In this document: in pieces, positions 489-60,026 of the stretch
How positions within the stretch are numbered: the stretch's first letter is position 1
Layout of the letters: the number at the start of each line of letters is the position of its first letter
Assembly: GCA_013697245.1 (NCBI GenBank)
Contig: JACCXH010000022.1
Coordinates: 1-64,000 of the forward strand
Direction: 5' to 3'
DNA length: 64,000 nt
Source of the DNA: Bacteroidota bacterium
GTDB lineage: Bacteria; Bacteroidota; Bacteroidia; B-17B0; Aurantibacillaceae
The notes under the pieces: model-generated
Told to the model about the DNA's origin: nothing
What the model saw: the letters and a program-made list of their open reading frames with translations, nothing else
Databases searched by the model: none
Made by a program: the position numbers and the translations under genes

Positions 489-1400
489 TTATTCTTTAAA
501 GCTTAATTCACTAAAATTAACTTTGGGTGCATAATAATGCAGCTCCCACCGTGTGGCAATTAGCTCTTTTTTATTTTGTGGTAGCAGCCGGAATTTCAAA
601 GTCTCATTTTCATCTGCGCTTTGGCATATCTTTTTTAGCGATTCCCTTAACTCTAAAATTTCATTTGCATAAGGGTAGTTTTGCAGACTTTTAAAATAAT
701 TGGAGCGGATCAACAAGGTAAAAGCGTTACAAATTTCTTTGAGATCATCTACTTTAATTGTTTTCATTTCAGAAAACGTCAATAAACATTCCGCCAAACA
801 TTTAAAGCGGGTACTTACCCATAAATAAATACCGGTAGCATCGTTCCAAAACAATGGAGATAATTTTGAAATGTTATCCCGCTCATCGGTTAACTCAATT
901 AAAGCGTCAACAAAAGGGCTTTTGTAGTGTTTGTATTGTGCTTCTAAATCTCTACCCGCATTATTATTTACGTTTAATGCATCAATTGACGGATAATTTG
1001 TTGACGGCTTTTGGCTTTGCCCTGATACTTCTGTTGACGGATAAATCATTTTAGTGGATGGGTTTTCATCTTCTAAGTTTTTTTTTGTTGACGGGTAAAT
1101 TATTTTAGTTGACATATAATTTATTGCATTTTCCTTTATTGACGGATATTGGTTTTGTTGTGATCCATCAGTTGACGGATAAATAGATTTAGCCAGAGCC
1201 TCTTCATTTTCGTTTAAATACTTTGTTGACGGCTCAGTATCGTTTTTACTTAATTGTAATTCATGCATTGATTTTAAATTGACGGATAAATTCATTTTCC
1301 GTACTTTATAAGCCATTTGCTTATGTGAGGGGCAGCAATAAACAGCATCAATGCGTTTAGGAATGAATGAATTTTGACAGTATGGGCATATTATTTTCAT
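489..1400 (-). CDS. zinc-finger protein with internal YPST repeats, unknown function
   Basis: I do not recognise a named family. The N-terminus has a Cys-rich knuckle (C5, C8, C22, C23, H26) resembling the short zinc ribbons found in Bacteroidota mobile-element proteins. Residues about 36-140 are low complexity and carry repeated (I/Y)YPST(K) motifs, encoded by repeats of a TTGACGGATAAAT-like DNA word. Residues about 150-303 look globular and helical (DALIELTDERDNISKL onward). It ends a leftward gene series, six bases after the preceding gene, so probably co-transcribed with it. The DNA repeat appears to matter more than the peptide, because one copy lies in another frame. A replication, transfer or regulatory role is inference. 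Confidence 0.7.
   Translation of the reverse strand: MKIICPYCQNSFIPKRIDAVYCCPSHKQMAYKVRKMNLSVNLKSMHELQLSKNDTEPSTKYLNENEEALAKSIYPSTDGSQQNQYPSIKENAINYMSTKIIYPSTKKNLEDENPSTKMIYPSTEVSGQSQKPSTNYPSIDALNVNNNAGRDLEAQYKHYKSPFVDALIELTDERDNISKLSPLFWNDATGIYLWVSTRFKCLAECLLTFSEMKTIKVDDLKEICNAFTLLIRSNYFKSLQNYPYANEILELRESLKKICQSADENETLKFRLLPQNKKELIATRWELHYYAPKVNFSELSFKE
986..1299. repeat. iteron-like cluster of TTGACGGATAAAT repeats inside a gene
   Basis: Copies of (G/A)TTGACGG(A/G)TAAAT or clear variants start (at TTGAC) at 986, 1001, 1034, 1088, 1109, 1139, 1172, 1226 and 1279, with a weak one near 1054. Several extend further with ATTTTAG downstream. Nine share one phase modulo 3 and encode YPST-type peptides. 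The copy at 1279 is in a different phase and encodes Leu-Ser-Val. Conservation of the word across frames suggests selection on DNA. The same orientation throughout resembles iterons or a repeated protein-binding site. Confidence 0.75.
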
Positions 1401-1406
1401 GTTGAG

Positions 1407-1676
1407 TTACCTCCAGTTAACGTTTTCTTCTTCTTCTTCTTCTTCTGATCGGAAATTAGTATAATCTTCTAACATTGTTTGTATATCATACAGTGCATTT
1501 TGATGGCGACTAAATTTTTTATCGTAAGTAATGGCTACTACTATAAGGCTTCGGTTTGGGATCACCTGTATAATTTCATGTGTTAGGTTTTCTTTAAGGA
1601 TGACGCTTAAAACGTCAACGACCATATCTATGGGTATTTTGATCGTTTCTTCAATTATTTCTTTTTCTTGTTTCAT
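1407..1676 (-). CDS. small hypothetical protein with poly-Glu tail
   Basis: About 89 residues from ATG at 1676; an upstream in-frame TTG at 1700 is less likely. No family is recognised. The N-terminus is charged, the middle has two predicted beta/alpha segments (VVDVLSVILK, SLIVVAITYD), and the C-terminus is a run of glutamates encoded by a (TTC)n microsatellite. It sits between a coiled-coil gene and the zinc-finger gene in the same leftward cluster, six bases from the latter. Confidence 0.6.
   Translation of the reverse strand: MKQEKEIIEETIKIPIDMVVDVLSVILKENLTHEIIQVIPNRSLIVVAITYDKKFSRHQNALYDIQTMLEDYTNFRSEEEEEEENVNWR
1425..1446. repeat. (TTC)7 microsatellite in a coding region
   Basis: Seven TTC triplets in a row, read on the minus strand as GAA codons giving a poly-Glu tract near the C-terminus of the small protein at 1407-1676. 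Triplet slippage would change tail length without a frameshift. Confidence 0.85.
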
Positions 1677-1730
1677 GGCTTTTAATTTTAAAGGCTTCAA
1701 TTATTGGCTAAATTTTGACGGTTTGGCAGT

Positions 1731-2123
1731 TTATAAATGAACGCTTCTTTTATAGTGAGCTGATTTTCCTGCATTTTCATAAGCGCGTTTAGTAGTAAAA
1801 AGGTCATCGTCACCTTGTTTGCGCTTTTGGTTTGCCTCGTTATTTAATTGTAAGATCAAGCGGTCTTGCTCGTTTTCAAGATCTTTGATCCTGTCTTTTT
1901 GCCCGCCGATCTCTTTTTGCATTTCTTCCATTTTATCCTGCATAGGCTTTATAAATAAAAAATAGTTTGCACCAAGCGAACCAGCCCCGGTTAGTAAATG
2001 TTTTAACCAGTCTGGAATATTAAGGCCATCAAGGTTCAATCCTTCCAAAGGGTTGCTGCTTTTATTTTTGTTGGTCTTTTGAGTGTTGTCCTCACTTTTG
2101 GTTTTATTTTCATTCTCTTCCAT
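1731..2123 (-). CDS. membrane-associated coiled-coil small protein
   Basis: 130 residues from ATG at 2123. The first 30 residues are polar (Lys/Asn/Thr-rich). A weakly hydrophobic stretch follows (residues about 40-60, WLKHLLTGAGSLGANYFLFI) that could touch or cross a membrane. A coiled coil occupies residues about 62-100 (MEEMQKEIGGQKDRIKDLEN), with a basic tail. It lies 24 bases after the upstream gene in the leftward cluster. No family is recognised; small helical accessory proteins like this are common in Bacteroidota integrated elements. Confidence 0.6.
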   Translation of the reverse strand: MEENENKTKSEDNTQKTNKNKSSNPLEGLNLDGLNIPDWLKHLLTGAGSLGANYFLFIKPMQDKMEEMQKEIGGQKDRIKDLENEQDRLILQLNNEANQKRKQGDDDLFTTKRAYENAGKSAHYKRSVHL

Positions 2124-2147
2124 TTTTTCGGATTTTAATGGTTATTT

Positions 2148-2447
2148 TCAGATGTACATAATGTTTCTTGCCATTTCGCTTATTGCAAGGGAAACCCTCA
2201 GTTTTATGTTTTCTTTCTCCAATGCTTCAAGTGCTTGTACCAGCTGATGAAGATCCTTTCTTTGTTTTAAGATATGCTGCTCTAATTCTGTAATGATTGG
2301 TTCATCTTCCTGCAAATAATCAAGCTGCATACGAAGCCTGTTTTTATCATCCTGCCCTAAATAAGTACAGACTATATTTTTTTCTTTGCATCTTTTTAAT
2401 ACCTCACCTGCTAACAGACTTAGAATATTTATTGTTTTAGTTTTCAT
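2148..2447 (-). CDS. small helical/coiled-coil hypothetical protein
   Basis: 99 residues from ATG at 2447. The second half (EQHILKQRKDLHQLVQALEA onward) is strongly helical with heptad-like hydrophobics. No Cys/His cluster, signal peptide or catalytic motif is seen. First gene of the run 2447-489, preceded by a hairpin-containing gap (2448-2606). Function unknown. Confidence 0.6.
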   Translation of the reverse strand: MKTKTINILSLLAGEVLKRCKEKNIVCTYLGQDDKNRLRMQLDYLQEDEPIITELEQHILKQRKDLHQLVQALEALEKENIKLRVSLAISEMARNIMYI

Positions 2448-2536
2448 GATGCTAATTTTTTTATCGTTTATAATTGATGGATTATATATAAAGTGTATGA
2501 TCCATTTAGTTTAATTATTTGCTTTTTTGTTTTTTC

Positions 2537-2582
2537 GTAAGCAGGGCAAACTTTTTTTAATGCCTGTTTGCCCTGTTCTTAC
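2537..2582. other. strong 15-bp hairpin in the gap between two element genes
   Basis: GTAAG then CAGGGCAAAC (2537-2551) can pair with GTTTGCCCTG (2566-2575) and CTTAC (2578-2582), with a two-base bulge. On the minus strand, where the flanking genes run, the stem is followed by an A-rich not a U-rich tract, so it is not a standard terminator for the gene at 2607-2921. On the plus strand it is followed by CTTTTTA. It could be an attenuator, a processing site or a DNA-level recombination site. Confidence 0.6.
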
Positions 2583-2606
2583 TGCTTTTTACCTAATCTT
2601 TACTCG

Positions 2607-2921
2607 TTAGGCGATGATAACACGCTTGCGTTTTAAACCCTTCATAAAATTTAAGACTTCGGCTTTCTTAAAAAGTAGCTTGCGCCCGATCCTATAAAAA
2701 GGCATACCCAGTTTTTTATAATTGTGTATGCTTACTTTTGAGCATCGCAGGAATTTTGACAGTTCCAAAATATTAAATACTTCTTCGTCTGATTTAATAT
2801 CATTTTTTATAGTGCCATCTTCTTCTTTGCGCCCATTTATTGCATCTGCTATCAACTGTTTTGTTAATATTATAAACTCTTCTATAGTAAGAGTATATAA
2901 TGGTTTTTTATCTTCACTCAT
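2607..2921 (-). CDS. excisionase-family helix-turn-helix DNA-binding protein (copy 1)
   Basis: 104 residues from ATG at 2921. The C-terminal half (about 48-100) is a MerR-like/excisionase winged helix-turn-helix: FNILELSKFLRCSKVSIHNY followed by the wing MPFYRIGRKLLFKKAEVLNF. This matches the helix_turn_helix_17 type common beside integrases in Bacteroidota elements. The N-terminal 45 residues are a helical extension. A paralogue lies immediately upstream (3002-3280). A role in excision or element gene control is inferred from family and context. Confidence 0.75.
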   Translation of the reverse strand: MSEDKKPLYTLTIEEFIILTKQLIADAINGRKEEDGTIKNDIKSDEEVFNILELSKFLRCSKVSIHNYKKLGMPFYRIGRKLLFKKAEVLNFMKGLKRKRVIIA

Positions 2922-3001
2922 ATCTTTCTTCTTTCTATCTTTTTTTGATCAATGGTTTTGAAAACTCTCAGCTTTCCTGGCCAATAATAAACTTTACTTA
3001 T

Positions 3002-3280
3002 TTATTCATGGTTCACCTCCTTTTCTTTTTTTGTTTTCATCCAGGCATTTAATTCATGTTTGGAGAAATGTAATTTTTTGCCCTTTTTATGGAAGGGTAT
3101 TTTTTTGTTGCTGGTATAATCGTATAAGGTAGTTACAGGCATTTTTAAATACAGGCTTGCTTGCTGTATATTAAAAAACTCATCTTCATCCTTCTTTTGC
3201 TTTAATCCTTGTTCAACAGCCTCAACGATAATTGTTTTTAAATCATATACGCTTAGGGTTTCAATTATTAATCGTTTCAT
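3002..3280 (-). CDS. excisionase-family helix-turn-helix DNA-binding protein (copy 2)
   Basis: 92 residues from ATG at 3280, preferred over a GTG at 3319. Residues about 35-85 form the same winged helix-turn-helix as the neighbour: FFNIQQASLYLKMPVTTLYD with the wing IPFHKKGKKLHFSKHELNAW. The aromatic and Lys positions match between the two proteins, so they are paralogues. It follows a GC-rich spacer and a strong terminator that closes the upstream gene, so it probably has its own promoter; a weak -7-like TACCTTTA occurs near 3325-3332 on the minus strand. DNA-binding regulator or directionality factor. Confidence 0.75.
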   Translation of the reverse strand: MKRLIIETLSVYDLKTIIVEAVEQGLKQKKDEDEFFNIQQASLYLKMPVTTLYDYTSNKKIPFHKKGKKLHFSKHELNAWMKTKKEKEVNHE

Positions 3281-3351
3281 GGTAAATAATTTTTTAAATA
3301 AATAAGAGTTCTTTCTCACTTATAAGTAAAGGTAGTAGGCAAAGAAGGGGG

Positions 3352-3380
3352 CGGGGTAGCCCCGATTTGTACCCCGATTT
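3352..3380. repeat. GC-rich spacer with alternative hairpins and a direct repeat
   Basis: In an otherwise AT-rich region, CGGGGT (3352-3357) can pair with ACCCCG (3371-3376). Alternatively GGGG (3353-3356) can pair with CCCC (3360-3363). CCCCGATTT is directly repeated at 3360 and 3372. It lies just upstream of the helix-turn-helix gene at 3280 and could be an operator or leader element for it. Confidence 0.45.
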
Positions 3381-3404
3381 TAGGATTGTTTTGTTATAAT
3401 GGGT

Positions 3405-3448
3405 ATAAAAACAGAAAATCCCAAACAGGTTTAGTTCTGTTTGGGGTT
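3405..3448 (-). terminator. rho-independent terminator after the 3469-4287 gene
   Basis: On the minus strand a 12-bp stem (CTGTTTGGG at 3437-3445 with CCCAAACAG at 3420-3428, plus three flanking pairs) has an 8-base loop and is followed by a T-rich tract (rc of 3405-3417). It ends transcription about 20 bases beyond the stop of the gene at 3469. Confidence 0.85.
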
Positions 3449-3468
3449 ATTTAGGAATTATTATAGTT

Positions 3469-4287
3469 TTAAGATAGGCTCTTATTGATAGAATCGATTT
3501 CCTTCTGAACAAGGTTGATTCCTTCAGCATGCTTAATATCTGCAAATTGTTTTTTAACAAATTCAAGATCGATTAATAATAGCTTATCCGGTTTTACATA
3601 AGGAAGATCTTTTATGACTTTATAAAGTGGCGCGTTATCAATATTACTATATGGCCAATTAAATAAAGCATGACCAAACCTTGTTAACGCAGCAAGTGAA
3701 ACGTCATCTTTTCGTGTTTGTATGCCCATTATTTTCAGGACAAAATAATACATGAGGGCTTGTCGCTTGCGGTTAAATTCCGGATTTTTTATTTTACTTT
3801 GATTTCCTTCGGGTATTTCAGTTGGTTCAGGCTTAATAACCGCAGATTCTTTGGACGTATTAGGCGGTAACAAAAGTAGTTTGTCTAAATGTGTAGTAAG
3901 TGTTTTTTCCAAAACAAAGGTTACAAAGTGGTCAAAATCCATAAGATCGAAAAAAGGCTCGTTTATTTTGAGTTTTTGAAAAAGGAGTGTTTTGCTATAT
4001 TCATCATCATTAAAATAATTGATCAGGTTGGTTCTTATAAATGGAACCATTTTATCTCTATACTTAGTGAGCAGTTTACTGCGTATAAATTCACCTCTGT
4101 CAAATTTAACTTCTTCCCACAATTCCAAATTTTCATCATAGCTAAAAATTCCCGCAATATATCCCCTAAGCGTTTCTATAAAGTAAATTTGATCCTCAAC
4201 GTGATCTAATGGTTTAAGGCTTTCGTTAATATCCTTAACGAAAGCATGATAAACTATTTCGACAACTTCTTTACGCTCATCTAACAT
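3469..4287 (-). CDS. hypothetical protein of a mobile-element-like cluster
   Basis: 272 residues from ATG at 4287. No family is recognised. It is acidic and helical without a signal peptide. Residues about 1-135 carry aromatic helices (NESLKPLDHVEDQIYFIETL), followed by a Pro-rich linker near 143-165, then a Lys/Arg-rich helical C-terminal part (NRKRQALMYYFVLKIMGIQT onward) ending in a coiled stretch. Domain layout and position beside excisionase-like genes resemble the cytosolic hypothetical genes near integrases in Bacteroidota. It is transcribed alone, with a strong terminator after it. Confidence 0.6.
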   Translation of the reverse strand: MLDERKEVVEIVYHAFVKDINESLKPLDHVEDQIYFIETLRGYIAGIFSYDENLELWEEVKFDRGEFIRSKLLTKYRDKMVPFIRTNLINYFNDDEYSKTLLFQKLKINEPFFDLMDFDHFVTFVLEKTLTTHLDKLLLLPPNTSKESAVIKPEPTEIPEGNQSKIKNPEFNRKRQALMYYFVLKIMGIQTRKDDVSLAALTRFGHALFNWPYSNIDNAPLYKVIKDLPYVKPDKLLLIDLEFVKKQFADIKHAEGINLVQKEIDSINKSLS

Positions 4288-4583: not shown

Positions 4584-5777
4584 ATGAAAAAATCTATACT
4601 TTTTATTGCCATTGCTTTTGTTGGTTTTACAGCATGTAAAAAAGATAAGACCGAACCAACACCTGAGCCAACACCAACACCAGTAGTTGACCCTAATGCA
4701 ACACAGAAACAACAAGTAAAGCAAACCTACGCTAACATTGCCTTTGCAGTTTATGACGATGCTTATTTAGGAACACTGGCACTTAAAACCGCTATCAATG
4801 CTTTTGTATTAAACCCAACAGCAACAGGGTTTCAAGCCTGTAAACAAAAATGGTTGGATGTGAGAGAGATTTACGGATTAACTGAGACATTCCGTTTTGT
4901 TGATGGCCCAATTGATGATCCTGCAAATGGCCCTGAAGGATTTATTAATGCCTGGCCTATGGATGAAGCTTATGTTGATTACGTTACAGGAAACGCAACA
5001 GCAGGGATTATAAATAATTCAACAACTTACCCAACCATTGACCAAGCCACGCTTTTGACAGCGAATGAAAACGGCGGCGAAGAAAATATCTCCTTAGGAT
5101 TTCATGCCATTGAATTTTTATTGTGGGGACAAGATCTATCGGCATCTACAGCAGGGGTTCGGCCTTATACAGACTATTTAACAACAGGTGGTACAGCCTC
5201 CAATCAGGCACGAAGAGGACAATATTTAAATACCACCGTTGATATTTTAGTTGCAGGGCTTAAACAAGTTCGCGATGATTGGGATCCAACGGTTTCAGGT
5301 AATTACCATAGTACTTTTTTAGCTTTAGATAATGCTGTCGCTTTAAGAAAAATGTTCAATAGCTTAAAAGTAATGAGCGGTGTTGAACTCTCAGGTGAAC
5401 GTATGTACACAGCTTATACAAATATGAATCAGGAAGATGAACACAGCTGTTTTTCAGATAATACACACCGGGATATTTATTTAAACGCAAAAGGAATGCA
5501 GAACTTATATAACGGTACATATACAAGAACAAACTTAACAGTTGTTTCAGGTTATGCTTTAAAGGATTTAGTGCCGCTTTACGATGCTTCAAAAAATAAT
5601 GATGTTATTAACTATTTAAACAGTTCAATAGCTAAAATTAATTTGATGTACATTCCATTTGATCAAGCAATTATATTAGCGCCCGAAAGACCAAAAGTAT
5701 TAGCATCTGTAAACGAACTCCAAGCCTTGGAAACAAAAATTGTTGCTGCTGCCGGTGCTTTAAGCATTAGTTTTTAA
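4584..5777 (+). CDS. imelysin family lipoprotein
   Basis: 397 residues. Signal peptide with lipobox FTAC (Cys18), then a Thr/Pro-rich tether, then an imelysin (Peptidase_M75, PF09375) domain from about residue 42. The GxHxxE signature is present as GFHAIE (H174, E177) with LLWGQ after it. Imelysins are surface or periplasmic proteins linked to iron acquisition; no peptidase activity is established for most. The next gene, a di-heme oxidoreductase, begins seven bases after the stop, a pairing seen repeatedly for imelysins, so the two probably form one functional unit in periplasmic iron or haem metabolism. Confidence 0.9.
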   Translation: MKKSILFIAIAFVGFTACKKDKTEPTPEPTPTPVVDPNATQKQQVKQTYANIAFAVYDDAYLGTLALKTAINAFVLNPTATGFQACKQKWLDVREIYGLTETFRFVDGPIDDPANGPEGFINAWPMDEAYVDYVTGNATAGIINNSTTYPTIDQATLLTANENGGEENISLGFHAIEFLLWGQDLSASTAGVRPYTDYLTTGGTASNQARRGQYLNTTVDILVAGLKQVRDDWDPTVSGNYHSTFLALDNAVALRKMFNSLKVMSGVELSGERMYTAYTNMNQEDEHSCFSDNTHRDIYLNAKGMQNLYNGTYTRTNLTVVSGYALKDLVPLYDASKNNDVINYLNSSIAKINLMYIPFDQAIILAPERPKVLASVNELQALETKIVAAAGALSISF

Positions 5778-5784
5778 ATTTATT

Positions 5785-7182
5785 TTGAAACAAAACTATT
5801 TATTTATAGCCTTAATTTTTTCTTTAGTCTCTTGTAAAAAAGACCAGAAAACAGAGCCATCCATAACAGTTGGCTCTTCTGCGTATGAAGAAGGCGAAGA
5901 ATTTTCAGCAGGTATAAGAACCGTTAACGATCAATCATCATTGGCGTTTAGTTATCAATTATCAGGGCTAAATGCACAGGAAAAATTAGATTTTTTTGTT
6001 GGCAATTCTTTTTTTAATCAAAATTGGGTCGAAGCACCCTCTTCAACAACAGCAAGAGATGGATTAGGCCCAATGTTTAATGCCCGTTCATGCGCAAGTT
6101 GCCATTTTAGAGATGGTAGAGGCGAGCCTTTTGCTAATAAAGGACTTTTATTTAGACTAAGCGTTCCCGGTATTGGATTAAACGGTGAGCCACTTGCAGA
6201 TATTAACTACGGCGGTCAATTAAGCGACAATTCTATTCAGGGAGTTGCTTCTGAAGGCGTATTTAATATTTTTTACAATGAACAAAATTATCAATTTCCT
6301 GATGGCGAAAACTACTCCTTAAGAACACCTGTTTATACATTTACGGGCTTAAATTATGGGGCGATGAATAGTAGTATTATGTTCTCGCCTCGTATTGGGC
6401 AACAAATGATTGGGCTGGGATTAATAGAAGCTTTGAATGATGCGGATGTTTTATCCAAAGTAGATGAGATGGATGCAAACGCTGATGGCATAAGTGGGAA
6501 AGCAAACTACGTCTATGATGCTATTTCCAAAAGTCAGCGCTTAGGTAAATTTGGATGGAAAGCAAATGTTGCCAATTTATACCATCAAACCGCAGGCGCT
6601 TTTTTAGGGGATTTGGGAATAACAACATGGCTTTTTAAAAATGAAAACTGCACCTCGATACAAAATGATTGCCAAACGGCTATAAATGGTGGCGCGCCGG
6701 AAATAGACAGTACCAACTTAAATTTGACCGTTCTTTATGCCAGGTCATTAGGTGTTCCTATTCGCAGAAACTATAAAGATGCTGATGTATTACTTGGTAA
6801 AATGATCTTTACCAATTTAGGGTGTGCAAATTGTCACACGCCAAAATATACAACCGGAAACAATTCTCCAATTGCAGCTTTAAACACTATTGAAATTAGA
6901 CCATACTCTGACTTTTTACTTCATGATATGGGAAATGATTTAGCAGACAATCGACCCGATTACTTAGCTAATGGCAATGAATGGCGTACTCAGCCACTTT
7001 GGGGCCTTGGTTTAATACAAACTGTAAACGGGCATTCATTTTTATTACATGATGGTAGAGCAAGAACTATTCTTGAGGCAATCATGTGGCACGGTGGTGA
7101 AGCTAATAATTCAAAGCAGAAGTTTAGCATTCTCAAAAAAACGGAGAGAGATGCAGTTATCGCATTTTTAAAATCTTTGTAG
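5785..7182 (+). CDS. di-heme oxidoreductase (DUF1111 family) lipoprotein
   Basis: 465 residues starting at a TTG (5785); no ATG fits. Lipoprotein signal LVSC (Cys17). Two c-type haem motifs: CASCH at 103-107 and CANCH at 347-351, with GLGPMFNARSC just before the first, as in the DHOR family (PF06537), relatives of bacterial di-haem peroxidases. Final segment SFLLHDGRARTILEAIMWHG is the conserved C-terminal motif. Translationally close-coupled to imelysin. It probably transfers electrons in the periplasm for iron handling; the substrate is unknown. Confidence 0.9.
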   Translation: MKQNYLFIALIFSLVSCKKDQKTEPSITVGSSAYEEGEEFSAGIRTVNDQSSLAFSYQLSGLNAQEKLDFFVGNSFFNQNWVEAPSSTTARDGLGPMFNARSCASCHFRDGRGEPFANKGLLFRLSVPGIGLNGEPLADINYGGQLSDNSIQGVASEGVFNIFYNEQNYQFPDGENYSLRTPVYTFTGLNYGAMNSSIMFSPRIGQQMIGLGLIEALNDADVLSKVDEMDANADGISGKANYVYDAISKSQRLGKFGWKANVANLYHQTAGAFLGDLGITTWLFKNENCTSIQNDCQTAINGGAPEIDSTNLNLTVLYARSLGVPIRRNYKDADVLLGKMIFTNLGCANCHTPKYTTGNNSPIAALNTIEIRPYSDFLLHDMGNDLADNRPDYLANGNEWRTQPLWGLGLIQTVNGHSFLLHDGRARTILEAIMWHGGEANNSKQKFSILKKTERDAVIAFLKSL

Positions 7183-7217
7183 GTTTATTTAAAAAGAAGT
7201 GTTAATGCAATTATTAT

Positions 7218-7697
7218 TTAATGAAAATTAAAGGTCGTTACCAGATCACGGTTTCCTGCCTGAGAATGACAATTAATGCAGGTGGACGGATTTCTGTCCA
7301 CGCTATACAAAACTTCTCTATTGGGCTTTATTTCTCCCCACAACCACGAACCTGATCTTTTATACATAAAAGCATAAAGAATAATGGTATTGTTCCCATC
7401 ATAAATATCTTTTACAATTAACGAGCCGTTTGGCATTGTGCCTCCAAGGGGTAACTTTCCATTATCTGTTAGTGCATTAAAGCCAATGTTGTTAAAGCGC
7501 AATTTATATGGCCCGTGCGGGCCATTTGTACCCGGCAAAAGACTACTTGAATTATTTTTATAGTATTTTAAATCTGGCTCATTAATGCTATCCAACAACG
7601 CGAAATTAGAGTAAGCTAATTCAGGATTTTTACCTACTTTTTTTGTACAGGCAATTAAAATGCAAAGTGTAAGAATAAAAAGTAATAAGAATTTCAT
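7218..7697 (-). CDS. cytochrome P460-like c-type haem lipoprotein
   Basis: About 159 residues from ATG at 7697 (an upstream in-frame TTG at 7709 is less likely). Lipoprotein signal with LIAC. The body shows the P460 fold pattern: PYKLRFNNIGFNAL, PNGSLIVKDIY, SWLWGEIKP, then a single haem motif CINCH at residues about 140-144 close to the C-terminus. It is convergent with the di-heme oxidoreductase, 36 bases apart, adding a third periplasmic haem or iron protein. Whether the Lys-haem crosslink of true P460 exists cannot be told from sequence. Confidence 0.75.
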   Translation of the reverse strand: MKFLLLFILTLCILIACTKKVGKNPELAYSNFALLDSINEPDLKYYKNNSSSLLPGTNGPHGPYKLRFNNIGFNALTDNGKLPLGGTMPNGSLIVKDIYDGNNTIILYAFMYKRSGSWLWGEIKPNREVLYSVDRNPSTCINCHSQAGNRDLVTTFNFH

Positions 7698-7782
7698 TTT
7701 ATTTGGCAAATATTTTTATTGTTTTTAAAGATACGAATATTTGGTAAAAAAAGTTTTGCTGTAAGTAGGTAACATTTGCCCT

Positions 7783-8277
7783 TCATTCTTTACTCGCTTT
7801 TTTAATTTTAATTACTTCTTCTTGAAATAAATCGTAAACTTCTTTGTTAGAGGGCATATCCAAGCCTGAATCTTGTTCTTTTACTAAATCTAGTAATCTA
7901 CCCCTTTTAAAATACAATTTATCAGTTAGTATTTTAGCGTTCTTTGTTTGATAAGGCTTTTGATACGAGATTAAATTGTCAACGACTAGACTCAGTTCAT
8001 TATTTAAGAAATAATATTGAGTTTCTTTTTTAAACATTTCCCTATAGAGAATAACTTTTATTTTCTCTAAATTATTAGCAGTATAAAACAATGTTACCTT
8101 ATTATCAAGCCCCTCGTCATAAGCTTTGTAATCAATAACTTCTTTAACCTTTGTCCATTTTTTTATTGCATTAATGCGACTATAATTTTTCTTTATCAGT
8201 AAAAGCGATGTATCACTTTGTGCATAACCTATCGCTCCGGTTACAAGCAATACAAATAATGAAATTGTTTTTATCAT
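7783..8277 (-). CDS. secreted hypothetical protein
   Basis: 164 residues from ATG at 8277. N-terminal signal peptide (MIKTISLFVLLVTGAIGYAQ) with likely cleavage after AQ or near SDT. The mature part alternates beta-type segments (KVTLFYTANNLEKIKVILYR, TQYYFLNNELSLVVDN) and ends in a Lys-rich helix. No family recognised. It is transcribed leftward, upstream of the P460-like gene and 85 bases from it, possibly in the same unit. Confidence 0.65.
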   Translation of the reverse strand: MIKTISLFVLLVTGAIGYAQSDTSLLLIKKNYSRINAIKKWTKVKEVIDYKAYDEGLDNKVTLFYTANNLEKIKVILYREMFKKETQYYFLNNELSLVVDNLISYQKPYQTKNAKILTDKLYFKRGRLLDLVKEQDSGLDMPSNKEVYDLFQEEVIKIKKASKE

Positions 8278-8675
8278 TGTACTTTAGTCCTAGGCTCTAT
8301 TTTATATTTATATATCTTTCGATTATTATTAATTAATATTTATTGAATTAGTTTTCCTTCAATTCAAGATATTGATAATAACGTACGGCTCTATTTTCTT
8401 ACAATAATACATTTTCTTCACATAATTATGTAATTCAATAACGTTTTTCCTTAAAATCTACTTAGCAAATTCGTTCTATGTTTCTGAACCGTTAAAAAAC
8501 TCAAAATTATATGTTCTGAAATCTCTTGGTTTGGCTTAGCTTGTTTTAAGTCTATACCTGAGAATCAATTGAGGCACTTAACCCGAATAAATATAGAAGT
8601 AACCACTTGCTATATTAATTTGACCAGTTATAGGATTGAACATACCAGATATTTGAATTTATATAGCTTTAAAGT
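8278..8675. other. 398-bp intergenic region between divergent genes
   Basis: AT-rich gap containing the promoters of the leftward secreted protein and the rightward STAS-like/kinase series. No open frame, strong hairpin or RNA gene is visible. A partial -7-like GATATTTGAA lies near 8649 upstream of the GTG start at 8676. Confidence 0.5.
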
Positions 8676-9053
8676 GTGAACAAAACCCAAACACGCACAG
8701 CCCAAATCTATTTGGACGAGAATGGTATTTTACATTTGGTAATGAATGTAAGAGTTGTGGTGGATTTAGAAGATGCCATTGATAATTACTTGGTTATTAA
8801 GAATATTACCAAAAATAAGCCTTGTGTAAGATTGATAGATATTCGTAAAGTCTTTAAGATCGATAAAAAGGCAAAAGCATTTATCGATAAAAAACAAACA
8901 CAGGCAAACACAATTGCCCGTGCTATATTAATGAATAATGGGCTAAGGAAATCAACTGCTAATTTTTTTGTGAAGTTCAATTCAAATTTGATTCCTACTA
9001 AATTTTTCATTAACTATGATGAAGCAATTGAGTGGTTAAAATCCTATCAATAG
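8676..9053 (+). CDS. STAS/SpoIIAA-like small protein flanking a histidine kinase (copy 1)
   Basis: 125 residues from GTG at 8676. The pattern is that of a single STAS-like alpha/beta domain: strand DENGILHLVM, helix VVDLEDAIDNYLVI, strand CVRLIDIRKV, helix around KAKAFIDKKQ, strand ARAILMNNGL, then FFINYDEAIEWLKSY at the end. It resembles the DUF7793-type proteins found beside Bacteroidota kinases. The gene at 10907-11323 shares the same plan, ending in EKWLKSL, so the kinase between is bracketed by two paralogues. A role in kinase signalling is inferred from position only. Confidence 0.65.
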   Translation: MNKTQTRTAQIYLDENGILHLVMNVRVVVDLEDAIDNYLVIKNITKNKPCVRLIDIRKVFKIDKKAKAFIDKKQTQANTIARAILMNNGLRKSTANFFVKFNSNLIPTKFFINYDEAIEWLKSYQ

Positions 9054-9077
9054 TACTTCCAATCTAAATCAATTTTT

Positions 9078-10853
9078 ATGTATAATGACCCCTTCATAGT
9101 TGATTTTAACAGACTAAATATTGTTGCTCTTTCTTTTATTCCGGCAATAGTCAATTTAATTATCCTTAGTTATACGACACTTTATTCCCCAAAAACAAGG
9201 GTTAATATTTTCTTTTCGAGCTTTGTCTTAGCGCTTGCTATTTGGCAAATCATGGAAGGCTTTATGAGAATGAGCAAGGTTGCAGAAGTGGCCTCACAGT
9301 GGCATAGGCTATCGGAGATCTCTGTATTATTTGTAATTTTTTTTGGAAACCTGTTTGTTTTTCGATTTACCGGTTTTTACAAAAAGATACCGAATAAAAT
9401 TATTTTTATACTCTTTGTTTTACCGATACTGATTTTCTTTATCGCTTTAAATCTCCGATTAGATAGTTTTACTATCAAACAATCTGTTAGATGGTATTGG
9501 ATAACTAACCCGGAGCCAACGACGCTTACCTTATTAAACTCTGTCTGGGTCAGTTTAGGTGCTTTATCTATGCTCTTGTTGCTTTGGTATTATTATTTTA
9601 ATTCAAAGAAAAATTCACCCGAGCAGAAAAAATTGTTATGGATGGCTTGTGGTTTTAGTTTTCCTGTTATCGGGGGTATTGTTACCGAAATTGTATTTCC
9701 ATTAGTTTTTAAAATAGATAGTATTCCAACAACCAACTCGCTTGTAACTACTTTTTCTATTACTTCTATTATCGTTATAAGGAAATATAAAATGTTTAGT
9801 TATTCGCCAAAACACCAATGGGACAAAATAATTGAAACACTCAATGAAGGGATTTTGATCGTTAATAATAAAGATGAGATCATGTATGCAAACAGGGCTT
9901 TCTGTGAAGCTACAGGCTATGAGTTTTCTGAAATTAATGGTGTGATGGCAAACAAATTATTTTTCCCTAAAGAAGAGTTAATTTCATCTGAAGGTGAAAC
10001 TAAACTAAAAAATGAGGGTCATACCCAAATCGAAATACAAACAAAGAACGGAGATAAACGATGGATGATCGTAAGCGATTCTTCTTACACCGACAGAAAG
10101 GGTAAAATAATTGGTTCAATAAAATTGCATACAGATATAAGCCAAATAAGAAAAACAAAAGAAAATCTAAAGAGCGCTAATACAGAGTTAGAGATCTATG
10201 TTTATAAAGCTTCACACGATTTACGCGGCCCTTTAGCATCTATACTAGGTTTAATTGGCGTTGGACGCATGGAAATAAAAGACCAGACGGCATTAAAATA
10301 TCTTGAAATGTTAGATACATCTGCAAAAAAATTAGATACTACATTGGCAGAACTTGTAAAAGGTATGAAGATAAAAGAAATTCATGTATTTGACGATGTC
10401 ATTAATTTTGAAGATATAATTTCAGGTGTTTTAAAGATGTTTGAACATTACCCTGGTTATATTTGGCTAAAAGTTAGCTTAAATATTTCCGTTCCAAACG
10501 ATTTTATTTCTAATCGCTTTATAATCGAAACCATTTTTCAAAACTTAATAGAGAATGCCATTAAATATCAAAATTTAAAAGAAGATAATTCAATGCTTCA
10601 GATTGAAGTGTTACAGGAAAATAATAAGGTTAAAATACGGGTTGAAGATAATGGCATTGGTATTGATCCATCTTTTCAGGAAAAAATATTTGACATGTAT
10701 TTTAGAGGGACTGATGCTTCAACAGGCTCTGGTCTTGGTCTATATCTGGTTAAAAAATCTGTGGATAAATTAAATGGACACATTAGGCTTACAAGTCAAC
10801 CTAACCAAGGTGCGATTTTTTATGTGACATTACACAATACTATTGCTGCTTAA
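9078..10853 (+). CDS. orphan sensor histidine kinase with 7TM N-terminus and PAS domain
   Basis: 591 residues. About seven membrane helices in residues 15-235 (HisKA_7TM-like), a PAS domain around 245-355 (GILIVNNKDEIMYANRAFCE), a dimerisation helix with phospho-acceptor H380 in YKASHDLRGPL, and a HATPase domain with N-box N493 (NLIENAIKYQ), G1 DNGIGID (524-530) and G2 GSGLGLYL (550-557). All catalytic boxes look intact. No response regulator is adjacent. It begins 24 bases after one STAS-like gene and is followed by another. Confidence 0.9.
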   Translation: MYNDPFIVDFNRLNIVALSFIPAIVNLIILSYTTLYSPKTRVNIFFSSFVLALAIWQIMEGFMRMSKVAEVASQWHRLSEISVLFVIFFGNLFVFRFTGFYKKIPNKIIFILFVLPILIFFIALNLRLDSFTIKQSVRWYWITNPEPTTLTLLNSVWVSLGALSMLLLLWYYYFNSKKNSPEQKKLLWMACGFSFPVIGGIVTEIVFPLVFKIDSIPTTNSLVTTFSITSIIVIRKYKMFSYSPKHQWDKIIETLNEGILIVNNKDEIMYANRAFCEATGYEFSEINGVMANKLFFPKEELISSEGETKLKNEGHTQIEIQTKNGDKRWMIVSDSSYTDRKGKIIGSIKLHTDISQIRKTKENLKSANTELEIYVYKASHDLRGPLASILGLIGVGRMEIKDQTALKYLEMLDTSAKKLDTTLAELVKGMKIKEIHVFDDVINFEDIISGVLKMFEHYPGYIWLKVSLNISVPNDFISNRFIIETIFQNLIENAIKYQNLKEDNSMLQIEVLQENNKVKIRVEDNGIGIDPSFQEKIFDMYFRGTDASTGSGLGLYLVKKSVDKLNGHIRLTSQPNQGAIFYVTLHNTIAA

Positions 10854-10906
10854 CTTGATTTGCAAATTCAAAAAAATCCATTAATATTACACTACAATTT
10901 ATTTTA

Positions 10907-11323
10907 ATGGAATTAGCGGCAGATATAAAAATCCTTAAAGAAATTAGCGACCGGCTTTGTAATATAAAATTACGAAGCGATGGCATCTTACAATTTAATA
11001 CCATAAAAAATGTAGAGTATAGTAAAGATGAAGCGGTAATTGTCATTAATAATATCATAAATATTGCAGAAGGCAATCAATATTATATATTAGTTATTGC
11101 CGAGGATACATCAAACGTAACTGTTGAAGGTATGAGGCTATTATCCAGCGCTCCTGCTATGAGTTATGCTCTTGCTAAAGCGTATGTGATAAATTCCATA
11201 CCACATAAAATGATGGCTAATTTTTATTTAAAATTTCTAAAACCGGAGAAATCGGTGAGATTTTTTAGAAGCCAGGTTGAAACGGAGAAATGGCTAAAGT
11301 CTCTAAAAAATTACGCGATTTAG
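10907..11323 (+). CDS. STAS/SpoIIAA-like small protein flanking a histidine kinase (copy 2)
   Basis: 138 residues from ATG at 10907, 53 bases after the kinase. Strand/helix order matches the protein at 8676-9053: NIKLRSDGILQFNTIKNVEY, then a helical NIINIAEGNQYYILVIAEDT, then APAMSYALAKAYVINSIPHK, ending FRSQVETEKWLKSLKN. The HK2-flanking pair suggests duplication followed by divergence. Candidate partner or antagonist of the kinase; not established. Confidence 0.65.
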   Translation: MELAADIKILKEISDRLCNIKLRSDGILQFNTIKNVEYSKDEAVIVINNIINIAEGNQYYILVIAEDTSNVTVEGMRLLSSAPAMSYALAKAYVINSIPHKMMANFYLKFLKPEKSVRFFRSQVETEKWLKSLKNYAI

Positions 11324-11474: not shown

Positions 11475-12740
11475 TTACTTACTTTTTTTGTATGCGGAAA
11501 CAGAGCCAAATACTTTGGCCATTTCCTTAGCTCTTAAAGTATCTGCAATTTTAAAATAGCGTTGGGCTGACTTGTAACTCCTGTTACCTGTTATTGCCAT
11601 AGCAGTGGTTAAACTTCCCCCACGTTCTAAAAAATTGGTAACGAAGGATTTTTTGCTGGTATGAAATGTCGCGCATTGCCAAAGTGGTTGGGTTTGCTCA
11701 AAACGGGTCGCGCCTCTAAAATGGATGATCTGAACACTACGGGTTAATTTAGCTTTTTCCATCACTTTTTTTAAATACTGGTTGGCGTCACCTCCTTTAT
11801 ATTGTGGCATACAAAAAGGAAGATGTTTTTTAGCGTGACGTTTTATAATTTTCTTACTATGTGGATTTAAAGGGATAATATTGGGTTCTTTGGTTTTAAT
11901 TGTTCTATTAACAATTAAATCTCCCTGTATATTTTCAGGCTTCAATCCTTTTATATCTGAATATCTCATGCCTGTAAAACATCCCAAACAATACAAATCC
12001 CTTACTTCTGCTAAAGTCTTATTTTCTAATTTTAAATTTAAAAGGGTCATTACTTCATCATAATACAGGTAAATGATCTCTGTATTTTCCCACGTATTTT
12101 TAAATTCTTCTTTTTTAAACTCTACTGTTTTATGATAACCGTTTTTATGCGCCCAATTTAAAAAGGCTTTTAGTCGTTTTAAATTTGTTCCTACATAATT
12201 ATTAAAATACTTTTTTTCGTTAAAGCAATAATCCAGATATTCATCATAAAACCGTTGGTTAATATTTTCGAAGGTTAATTTATATCTTCTGCTTTTGCTA
12301 AAGTCTTCCAAGATTTTATAATTTAGTTTAGCATTGGAAACCGTTTTTGGTGTTTTACTAACGGCAAGGCTTTTTAAATAATCCTTGTATGCTTCCCATA
12401 TTGTTTTTTTGTCGATCAAATCCAATAATCGACCGTTCAGGTTATCTCTGAAGTATTCCAATGTTGGGGTTTCGTTTAATACTTTGGCTTTATCATATAA
12501 CTCTTCTACCTTGGCTTTTAATCGAGTAAGCTCCCTGTTATATTCTCCTGCTTCTGAATAGTTCTTTTTTACCTTCATGGTTTCTTCATTCCATTTTTGG
12601 GCATCAATGCGCATATTTGTATAATACTGTAGCCTTTGGCCGTGAAAACTGTAAAAGAGAAATATTGGAACGTTCTTGGTAATAACTTCACCTGTAATCT
12701 TATCTCTTCGTTTCTCTAAATAAAATTTAACTTCTGCCAT
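11475..12740 (-). CDS. tyrosine-type integrase with atypical active-site residues
   Basis: 421 residues from ATG at 12740. N-terminal arm-binding part (residues 1-100), SAM-like core-binding domain (about 112-205), catalytic domain (about 222-405). Arg I is R259 (TGMRYSD), the Lys is probably K284, and the nucleophile is Y395 (SAQRYFKI). Box II reads HTSKKSF, so the usual HxxR arginine is Lys363. The later His/Lys position is Asn386 (TGNRSYK instead of TGH). It resembles integrases of Bacteroidota integrative elements. No att site or tRNA was found next to it. It may be the integrase of the element whose other genes lie at 0.5-4.3 kb, or a decayed remnant. Confidence 0.85.
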   Translation of the reverse strand: MAEVKFYLEKRRDKITGEVITKNVPIFLFYSFHGQRLQYYTNMRIDAQKWNEETMKVKKNYSEAGEYNRELTRLKAKVEELYDKAKVLNETPTLEYFRDNLNGRLLDLIDKKTIWEAYKDYLKSLAVSKTPKTVSNAKLNYKILEDFSKSRRYKLTFENINQRFYDEYLDYCFNEKKYFNNYVGTNLKRLKAFLNWAHKNGYHKTVEFKKEEFKNTWENTEIIYLYYDEVMTLLNLKLENKTLAEVRDLYCLGCFTGMRYSDIKGLKPENIQGDLIVNRTIKTKEPNIIPLNPHSKKIIKRHAKKHLPFCMPQYKGGDANQYLKKVMEKAKLTRSVQIIHFRGATRFEQTQPLWQCATFHTSKKSFVTNFLERGGSLTTAMAITGNRSYKSAQRYFKIADTLRAKEMAKVFGSVSAYKKSK

Positions 12741-48269: not shown

Positions 48270-49756
48270 AGAGAATACTATACATATTACTTATCTGCAA
48301 TATACAAATTGCTATCAACTTCTGTTTTGCCCAAGAAAGAAGAACGATGGATTCGTTAAATTTAGCTTTAAAAACGGCTAAACACGATACCACACGCTGT
48401 AATATTTTAATTGCAATGATCGAGGCAGAAACTGAGGATGTTATCTCGATAAAGTATAATGAACAGTTAAAAAATATTACAGAAAGCAAACTAAAAACAA
48501 CTGAATCGACTTTGCCAGAATATCGCATTTATAAAAAACATTATGCTGCTTCATTAAATAATATTGGTTATGCGTATGATATTGCAGGCAATAGTCTAAA
48601 AGCCTTAGAATATTATAGCAAAAGCCAAAAAATACAAGAAGAAATTGGCGATAAGAATGGAGTTGCCACTTCCCTAAATAACATTGCGTATATTTATAAT
48701 AATCAGGGTGATATTTTAAAAGCCTTAGAATATTTCAGCAAAAGTCTAAAAATACAAGAAGGGATTGGCGACAAAAAAGGAATTTCAGTTCTATTAAATA
48801 ACATAGCAGGTATTTACAATTATCAAGGCGATAGTAAGAAGGCGTTAAGTTATCTGGAAAAGAGCTTAAAAATAAGAGAAGAAATTGGCGATAAAAATGG
48901 AATTGCTCGTGCATTAAATAACATTGGGTACTTTTATAATAAGCAAAACAATATTAATACTTCTATAATTTACTTCAGGAAAAGCCTTAAAATAAGAGAG
49001 GAAACTGATGATAAACCAGGGATTGCTGCTTCACTAATTAACATTGGGTATATTTACAAAATGCAAAATAATGTTCCGGAAGCATTAAATTATTTGGATC
49101 GAAGTCTAAAAATAAGCGAAGAGATTGGAGATAAAAATGGAATTGCAGATTGTCTAAATTACATTGGGGGTATTTATTGTGAACAAAAAAATTATAGCAA
49201 AGCTCTGTCTTATTGCAAAAAAAGCATGGTGTTGGCAAATGAATTGTCTTATCCTGTAGTTATTAAAAATGTAGCGAAAAATTTAAACCAAATTTACAAA
49301 GCCCTCGGAGATGACAAAAATTCATTATTAAACTACGAGCTCTACATTCAAATGCGCGATAGTATTAGTAACCAGGAAACAAAAAAAGCCAGTATTAAAA
49401 GCCAACTTAAATACGAATACGAAAAAAAAGCTGTCGCAGATAGCGTTAAAGTTGCAGAAGAAAAAAAGTTAACTACCGTAAAATTAAAACAAGAAAAAAC
49501 ACAACGTTACTTTTTATATGGCGGCTTGGGCTTAACCGTTTTATTTGGGCTATTTATGTTTAATCGCTTTCGTATAACACGAAAACAAAAAACTATTATT
49601 GAACAGCAAAAAACAATAGTTGAACACCAAAAAAGTTTAGTAGATGAAAAACAAAAAGAAATTTTAGACAGCATTCATTATGCGAAACGCATACAAACCA
49701 GTTTATTACCAACACAAATTTATATTCAAAGACAATTAAATAAACTGAAAAATTGA
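48266..49756 (+). CDS. TPR sensor-like membrane protein, array gene 4 (no output domain)
   Basis: 496 residues from TTG 48266 (overlaps the previous stop). Signal peptide, LALKTAKHDTTRCNILIAMI, about seven TPRs with highly regular KSLKIQEEIGDKNGIATSLN-like units, KKASIKSQLKYEYEKKAVAD, membrane helix, coiled coil, and tail EILDSIHYAKRIQTSLLP with a shorter, more divergent C-terminus. Stop TGA overlaps the next TTG start. Confidence 0.85.
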   Translation: MKRILYILLICNIQIAINFCFAQERRTMDSLNLALKTAKHDTTRCNILIAMIEAETEDVISIKYNEQLKNITESKLKTTESTLPEYRIYKKHYAASLNNIGYAYDIAGNSLKALEYYSKSQKIQEEIGDKNGVATSLNNIAYIYNNQGDILKALEYFSKSLKIQEGIGDKKGISVLLNNIAGIYNYQGDSKKALSYLEKSLKIREEIGDKNGIARALNNIGYFYNKQNNINTSIIYFRKSLKIREETDDKPGIAASLINIGYIYKMQNNVPEALNYLDRSLKISEEIGDKNGIADCLNYIGGIYCEQKNYSKALSYCKKSMVLANELSYPVVIKNVAKNLNQIYKALGDDKNSLLNYELYIQMRDSISNQETKKASIKSQLKYEYEKKAVADSVKVAEEKKLTTVKLKQEKTQRYFLYGGLGLTVLFGLFMFNRFRITRKQKTIIEQQKTIVEHQKSLVDEKQKEILDSIHYAKRIQTSLLPTQIYIQRQLNKLKN

Positions 49757-59936: not shown

Positions 59937-60026
59937 CAGGCTTGTGTCACCCTGAGCTTGTCGATGTCATGGTGAGTTTGTCGATGTCATGGTGAGCTTG
60001 TCGATGTCATGGTGAGCTTGTCGAAG
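59915..60026. repeat. REP-like inverted and tandem repeats after the GIY-YIG gene
   Basis: TCGACAAGCTCAGGGTGACA (59919-59938) is a perfect 20-bp inverted repeat of 59945-59964 with a six-base loop. From 59946 the 20-base unit recurs in tandem at 59946, 59966, 59986 and 60006 (the last extended to 60026), each beginning GTCA and containing GAGCTTGTCG or GAGTTTGTCG. The first half of the set overlaps the end of the GIY-YIG gene. Confidence 0.85.

Follow-up and report, generated by a model that had tools for sequence, protein, structure and literature searches.

Is a short word repeated within a bacterial gene maintained for the peptide that it encodes or for the DNA itself, and, in the latter case, what does the DNA do? 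This question is raised by a minus-strand gene, c1 (489-1400), located near one end of a 64,000-nucleotide stretch of Bacteroidota DNA (hereafter, the window). The gene encodes a protein of 303 aa, consisting of an N-terminal Cys ribbon (Zn-ribbon), a linker that carries the words, and a conserved helical C-terminal domain. An earlier note, made from the sequence of the window, described the words as iteron-like repeats on which conservation acts at the level of DNA, and suggested a replication or transfer origin, or a binding array for excisionase-like proteins encoded nearby.

Repeated words within the c1 gene

The repeats are real, and the earlier observation is confirmed. Eight exact copies of TTGACGG, all on the plus strand, lie within 986-1291, inside the minus-strand ORF. 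Seven of the eight are in phase, five of which encode YPS[T/I] and two K-PST or E-PST: the copies at 1034-1040, 1088-1094, and 1172-1178 encode IYPST, those at 986-992 and 1139-1145 encode NYPSI and QYPSI, and those at 1001-1007 and 1226-1232 encode KPST and EPST. Two further plus-strand copies are decayed and in phase, namely TGGATGG at 1055-1061, where the word is broken and the peptide is kept (NPST), and TTGACAT at 1109-1115 (YMST). The "about ten" same-orientation copies of the earlier note therefore correspond to eight exact and two decayed ones. Its statement that nine copies share one codon phase and encode YPST holds for the phase (seven exact and two decayed copies) but not for the peptide, which is K-PST, E-PST, NPST, or YMST in some copies. 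The remaining exact copy, at 1279-1285, is out of phase and encodes a different peptide, MNLSVN, as had been reported. A ninth exact TTGACGG is found on the plus strand at 1715-1721, in the noncoding gap between the genes c3 and c0, and nine of the 17 occurrences of TGACGG in the 64 kb are in 987-1721.

When the synonymous codons of the gene at 489-1400 were permuted, TTGACGG occurred 1.7 times on average and at most 6 times in 5000 trials, compared with the 8 copies observed (p = 2e-4). We also scored the window with a matrix built from 35 noncoding sites taken from other elements only. This matrix gave 17 matches with a score ≥ 9 in the 64 kb, 7 of them within 950-1300, including the four best. 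The copy at 986 had the best score in the window (22.4), the out-of-phase copy at 1279 the second-best (20.8), and the noncoding copy at 1715 a score of 9.6. At ≤ 2 mismatches, GACGGATAAAT was not enriched across the window as a whole (20 matches against a shuffle mean of 21.9). The signal is therefore one of local clustering, and the claim rests on this clustering and on the related elements described below. The in-gene copies of the window are not significantly phased with respect to the helix (p = 0.065). No clear AT-rich unwinding region was apparent, the AT content being 0.59-0.72 throughout. Other repeats in the window are 120-bp tandem repeats at 48550-49176 (about 3-5 copies) and 20-bp tandem repeats at 59953-60024 (3.6 copies, 96% matches).

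These data bear on the simplest explanation of the repeat, that YPST is a functional peptide with the DNA word as its by-product, or that the copies arose by recent duplication. The shared codon phase of seven of the eight exact copies fits such a protein-level repeat, as does the decayed copy that keeps PST in a broken word. The out-of-phase copy at 1279 and the result of the codon permutation argue against it, and the related elements weigh further on the same side.

The word in related elements

In the elements L044-L047 and L057, the word array occurs in the noncoding leader between the genes c7 and c5, with 6-8 matrix sites in the leader versus 0-2 in the gene. Looking in relatives for the array without the gene copies, as the earlier note had proposed, thus gave a positive result in these leaders. 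The spacings in the leader arrays are mostly 20-22 bp, with some of 10-12, 32, and 43 bp. For the leader arrays of L044-L047, L057, and L042, the mean vector length was 0.92-0.99 at the best of three periods (10.3-10.7), calculated without a null distribution; the leader sites of these six elements are direct repeats, regularly spaced and close to a single face of the helix. Three of the four exact in-gene copies in L061 and L043 run in the opposite direction, encoding (V/I)DG, and L102 has copies on both strands. The closest relative (L017), 70% identical over residues 135-302, has neither YPST nor the word.

No relative was seen in which the peptide YPST alone is conserved: L017 lacks both the peptide and the word, and in L061 and L043 the word is retained, mostly on the opposite strand. 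The protein-level reading was therefore rejected on the basis of the noncoding arrays, the opposite strand, and the other frames, and the relative without YPST in its 70% identical C-terminal part also contradicts it; we consider it highly improbable. The proposal that conservation acts on DNA has fared well, since the word is noncoding, on either strand, and in other frames in the relatives, in addition to the codon permutation. That the word is conserved as DNA, and not for YPST, is strongly supported by these sequence comparisons.

We compared the numbers of leader and in-gene sites across 11 TTGACGG-group elements. The sum of leader and gene sites was 6 in L044, 10 in L045, 8 in L046, 7 in L047, 7 in L057, 4 in L041, 9 in L042, 8 in L043, 8 in L061, 9 in L102, and 12 in the window, where the "leaders" of the window and L102 include other genes. 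Nine of the 11 elements thus have 6-10 sites, the exceptions being L041 (4) and the window (12); L041 and L017 are off the pattern of a fixed number. The leader and gene copies trade off: the in-gene number was negatively correlated with the leader number (Spearman −0.66, p = 0.027) and positively correlated with the length of c1 (Spearman 0.81, p = 0.002), both p values being optimistic because the 11 elements are related.

The position of the arrays also raises the possibility of an operator, at which a repressor or activator (c1 or a protein of the c7/RteC type) would tune transcription of the cassette, the in-gene copies acting by looping or titration. Many of the relatives' arrays are upstream of the first cassette gene, beside palindromes and a promoter-like stretch; in some elements, an RteC protein is found in the place of c7; and in the L059 group, copies of another word, CGTAAAATA, which is found in both leader and gene, directly precede the first gene. 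In the window, however, the leader that separates c7 from the HTH genes (3281-3468, no strand assigned) contains a GC-rich inverted-repeat-like stretch and no exact TGACGG, and the array lies ∼2 kb downstream of it, at the distal end of the operon. A purely promoter-proximal role is disfavored because of this leader. Furthermore, the strand, frame, and place of the copies vary while their number stays similar, which counts against an operator, and we regard this explanation as rather unlikely. In the leaders of L044-L047 and L057 (at about 4800-4950), a TTGACGTTTC-like box and TTGATTATCAA-like and GGGTATACCC-like palindromes separate the array from the first gene; these may be regulator sites.

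The c1 protein and its homologues

The c1 protein belongs to no Pfam family and has no sequence match in the PDB. The AlphaFold model of the c1 homologue of L044 has the ribbon, a low-confidence stretch at 38-77, and the helical domain. No significant structural match was obtained in a fold search with the c1 model; the hint for its N-terminal fold, the gyrase inhibitor YacG, was non-significant (Foldseek E = 2.9, probability 0.82; Z = 4.5). Pfam scans of the window and L044 proteins at E 0.1 detected neither RepA_N (PF06970) nor any other known initiator domain.

The same genome contains two clear homologues of c1. At E 1e-3, homologues were detected in 54 of 199 related genomes, many of the matches being partial and often to the ribbon alone, and at E 1e-15 in 20 of 87 genomes from the order; both counts include the genome of the window itself. 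Tblastn searches with the window protein against phages, and with the window, L059, and L044 proteins against plasmids, found no relatives, nor did a scan of viral_contigs with an alignment of 18 c1 sequences.

The cassette and its mobile elements

The c1 gene and its neighbors form a conserved cassette, which is found in small integrative elements of Bacteroidota that have either a serine or a tyrosine recombinase. The conserved order is c7 or RteC, c5, c3 or c6, c0, c1, c4 or c8, and then a large serine recombinase. All of the window genes concerned are on the minus strand. The 89-aa c0 (1407-1676) has a KH-like predicted fold without GxxG; its top Foldseek matches (lowest E = 1.1e-3, probability 1.00) are single-strand-binding KH domains, and GxxG is absent in the aligned sequences. 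Two further cassette members follow, the coiled-coil-like c3 of 130 aa (1731-2123) and c5 of 99 aa (2148-2447). Beyond these are an HTH_17/DUF3853-like protein (2607-2921), for which both matches are below the Pfam cut-off, an excisionase-like HTH_17 protein (3002-3280; Pfam E = 5.6e-12), and the 272-aa c7 (3469-4287), which occupies the position of RteC in other elements. A tyrosine integrase is encoded at 11475-12740, ∼7 kb from the c7 and HTH genes. It is 93-95% identical to the integrases of L062 and L064, in which it adjoins relatives of the window region 2607-4287 (the 272-aa gene and two HTH genes), and we infer that the integrase and the cassette belong to the same element.

Where the context is complete, the cassette is always accompanied by a recombinase. 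The serine type contains PF00239 (Resolvase) and PF07508 (Recombinase) in the relatives L044 and L059; the right end of the window element is missing. Serine recombinases on contigs C60 and C27 of the same genome, sought as its missing right part, have contexts without the words. Of the 19 serine-recombinase loci scanned, 10 have an opposite-strand tRNA gene, of varying identity, that overlaps the recombinase gene at its 3′ end; examples are L059:9123-9208, L047:8564-8648, and L061:1960-2036. Alignable copies of ∼4.3 kb with 88-90% identity occur in different surroundings, and both ends were found in L059, L058, and L052. The c3-c0-c1 block with an upstream tyrosine integrase was found in the two elements tested, L106 and L108; in L103 and L114, the same layout was recognized from gene positions alone. 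In its arrangement, the window copy resembles these elements of the L106 and L108 type. As c3-c0-c1 occurs with both serine and tyrosine recombinases, it is not tied to one recombination chemistry.

No relaxase was detected among the seven cassette and recombinase proteins of L044, the window genes at 489-4287, and the integrase. The scan was confined to these genes; the cargo genes lie at 4584-11323. There were no Rfam matches in L001 or L044. The c3-c0-c1 cassette is unnamed in the libraries searched, and no description of it appeared among the papers listed by our literature searches.

Other features of the same genome were as follows. A 131-bp repeat with GTAAAGCTAT direct repeats lies at the contig start (1-131) and also ends contigs C17 and C34, where it lies downstream of a Zn-ribbon gene, at a distance of a few hundred bases, in a different element each time. 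In three tyrosine-integrase elements (L062:3014-4702, L063:1964-3664, and L064:2675-4369), c1 is replaced by a protein of 562-566 aa with a c1-like Cys ribbon, hydrophobic segments, and a P-loop (weak NTPase matches); no such word array was found in the genes for this protein.

The constant company of a recombinase suggests another role, in which the array provides accessory sites for a nucleoprotein complex acting in excision, in segregation (partition) of the circle, or in hitch-hiking transfer. The excisionase-like HTH_17 genes of the window are consistent with such a role, as is the integrative mobilizable element (IME) NBU1, whose excision, according to the excerpted text of PMC5704250, depends on a large internal region that contains oriT and a portion of a gene. 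However, one cassette is combined with two unrelated types of recombinase, arrays are present without labelled HTH_17 genes, and the scanned genes include no relaxase. We therefore consider accessory sites to be unlikely. The more specific idea that the excisionase-like HTH_17 proteins bind the array gained little support, because L044-L047, L061, and L042 have arrays without a labelled HTH_17 gene.

Other words in diverged elements

Diverged elements carry other words: AAACGTCA occurs in three frames in L103 and L108, and AACG[GC]AA in three frames in L112. In L116, AAAGGG[TC]A occurs in three frames and on both strands, with 10 copies compared with a null mean of 1.44 and maximum of 6. For pairs of a gene and a word, p was ≤ 0.016 in 12 of 13 cases and 0.23 in L042, the words of all these pairs having mostly been picked after inspection. 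An unguided permutation of 38 distinct genes gave 12 genes with p < 0.05 at some word length, uncorrected, two of which (L047 and L049) had a word without known meaning. The other 26 genes had no significant word, partly because the sites are in the leader or absent. The synonymous constraint on the word codons in the L059 group was not significant (p = 0.059). Altogether, at least five different words occur across the diverged elements, and their copies shift between noncoding and coding DNA, between strands, and between frames.

A putative origin-like locus

The explanation that we prefer is an array of iterons for an element-encoded protein, located inside the last gene of the cassette and serving as an origin-like locus once the element has been excised; we give this explanation somewhat less than an even chance of being correct as a whole. 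The array would consist of DNA sites for the element's own DNA-binding protein, for which c1, with its Zn-ribbon, is the most likely candidate, and the disordered linker of c1 would be a passenger encoded by these sites. The recombinase would excise the element as a circle, and the array and c1 (with c0 and c3) would form a position-tolerant origin-like locus by which the circle replicates or is maintained. An array that tolerates changes of position and strand, has a similar size, and lies beside a dedicated protein is better explained as an origin-like or maintenance locus than as an operator close to a promoter. Among the functions proposed in the earlier note, a putative replication origin is the best reading of the array, and a transfer origin is possible, with no relaxase among the genes scanned.

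More broadly, the elements may represent a previously undescribed and apparently relaxase-less family of small integrative elements in Bacteroidota, driven by serine or tyrosine recombinases, with a c3-c0-c1 cassette, a Zn-ribbon initiator, diverging words (TTGACGGATAA, TTGACGTTT, CGTAAAATAC, AAAGGGYA, and CCAACGSAAA), and an origin-like array that roams between the leader and the initiator's own gene, the linker being a passenger. We propose this broader picture tentatively and consider it doubtful in its entirety. The shifting of copies between places, strands, and frames is a natural experiment on the tolerance of a disordered protein linker for a DNA code, and may offer a route to the maintenance locus and specificity determinant of a common, apparently unstudied Bacteroidota mobile element.

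Comparison with known systems

In pSK41 and other replicons with a RepA_N-type rep gene, the binding sites are central in the initiator gene, in the linker-coding part between the N-terminal DNA-binding domain and the C-terminal domain, according to excerpts of PMC5703833. The word array likewise lies in the linker-coding part of c1, a putative initiator. In contrast to pSK41, c1 has a Zn-ribbon and no RepA_N, sites are also found in the leader, and the carriers are Bacteroidota integrative elements. In phage lambda, the iterons of ori lambda are in the middle of the initiator gene O, and a variable iteron number adds residues to the protein, as described in part of PMC7466680. The array of c1 is similar in that the putative origin is inside a gene; however, we found no sequence relation to O, and c1 has a different word, a different architecture, and no identified P-like partner. 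The PLE satellite of Vibrio cholerae is an element with a large serine recombinase, its own initiator, and iterons; in the portions of PMC7145576 consulted, these iterons are noncoding, the initiator is RepA_N, and the element depends on a phage, whereas no phage link was found for c1.

Within Bacteroidota, the elements resemble those of the CTnDOT/NBU1 kind: some members have RteC, and others have excisionase-like HTH_17 genes and a tyrosine integrase. According to the same excerpts of PMC5704250, the known IMEs of Bacteroidetes encode a relaxase, whereas none was detected in the genes scanned here. Binding arrays within genes are already known from a few model replicons; the present elements are unusual in how many word classes they have and in how the array moves between leader and gene.
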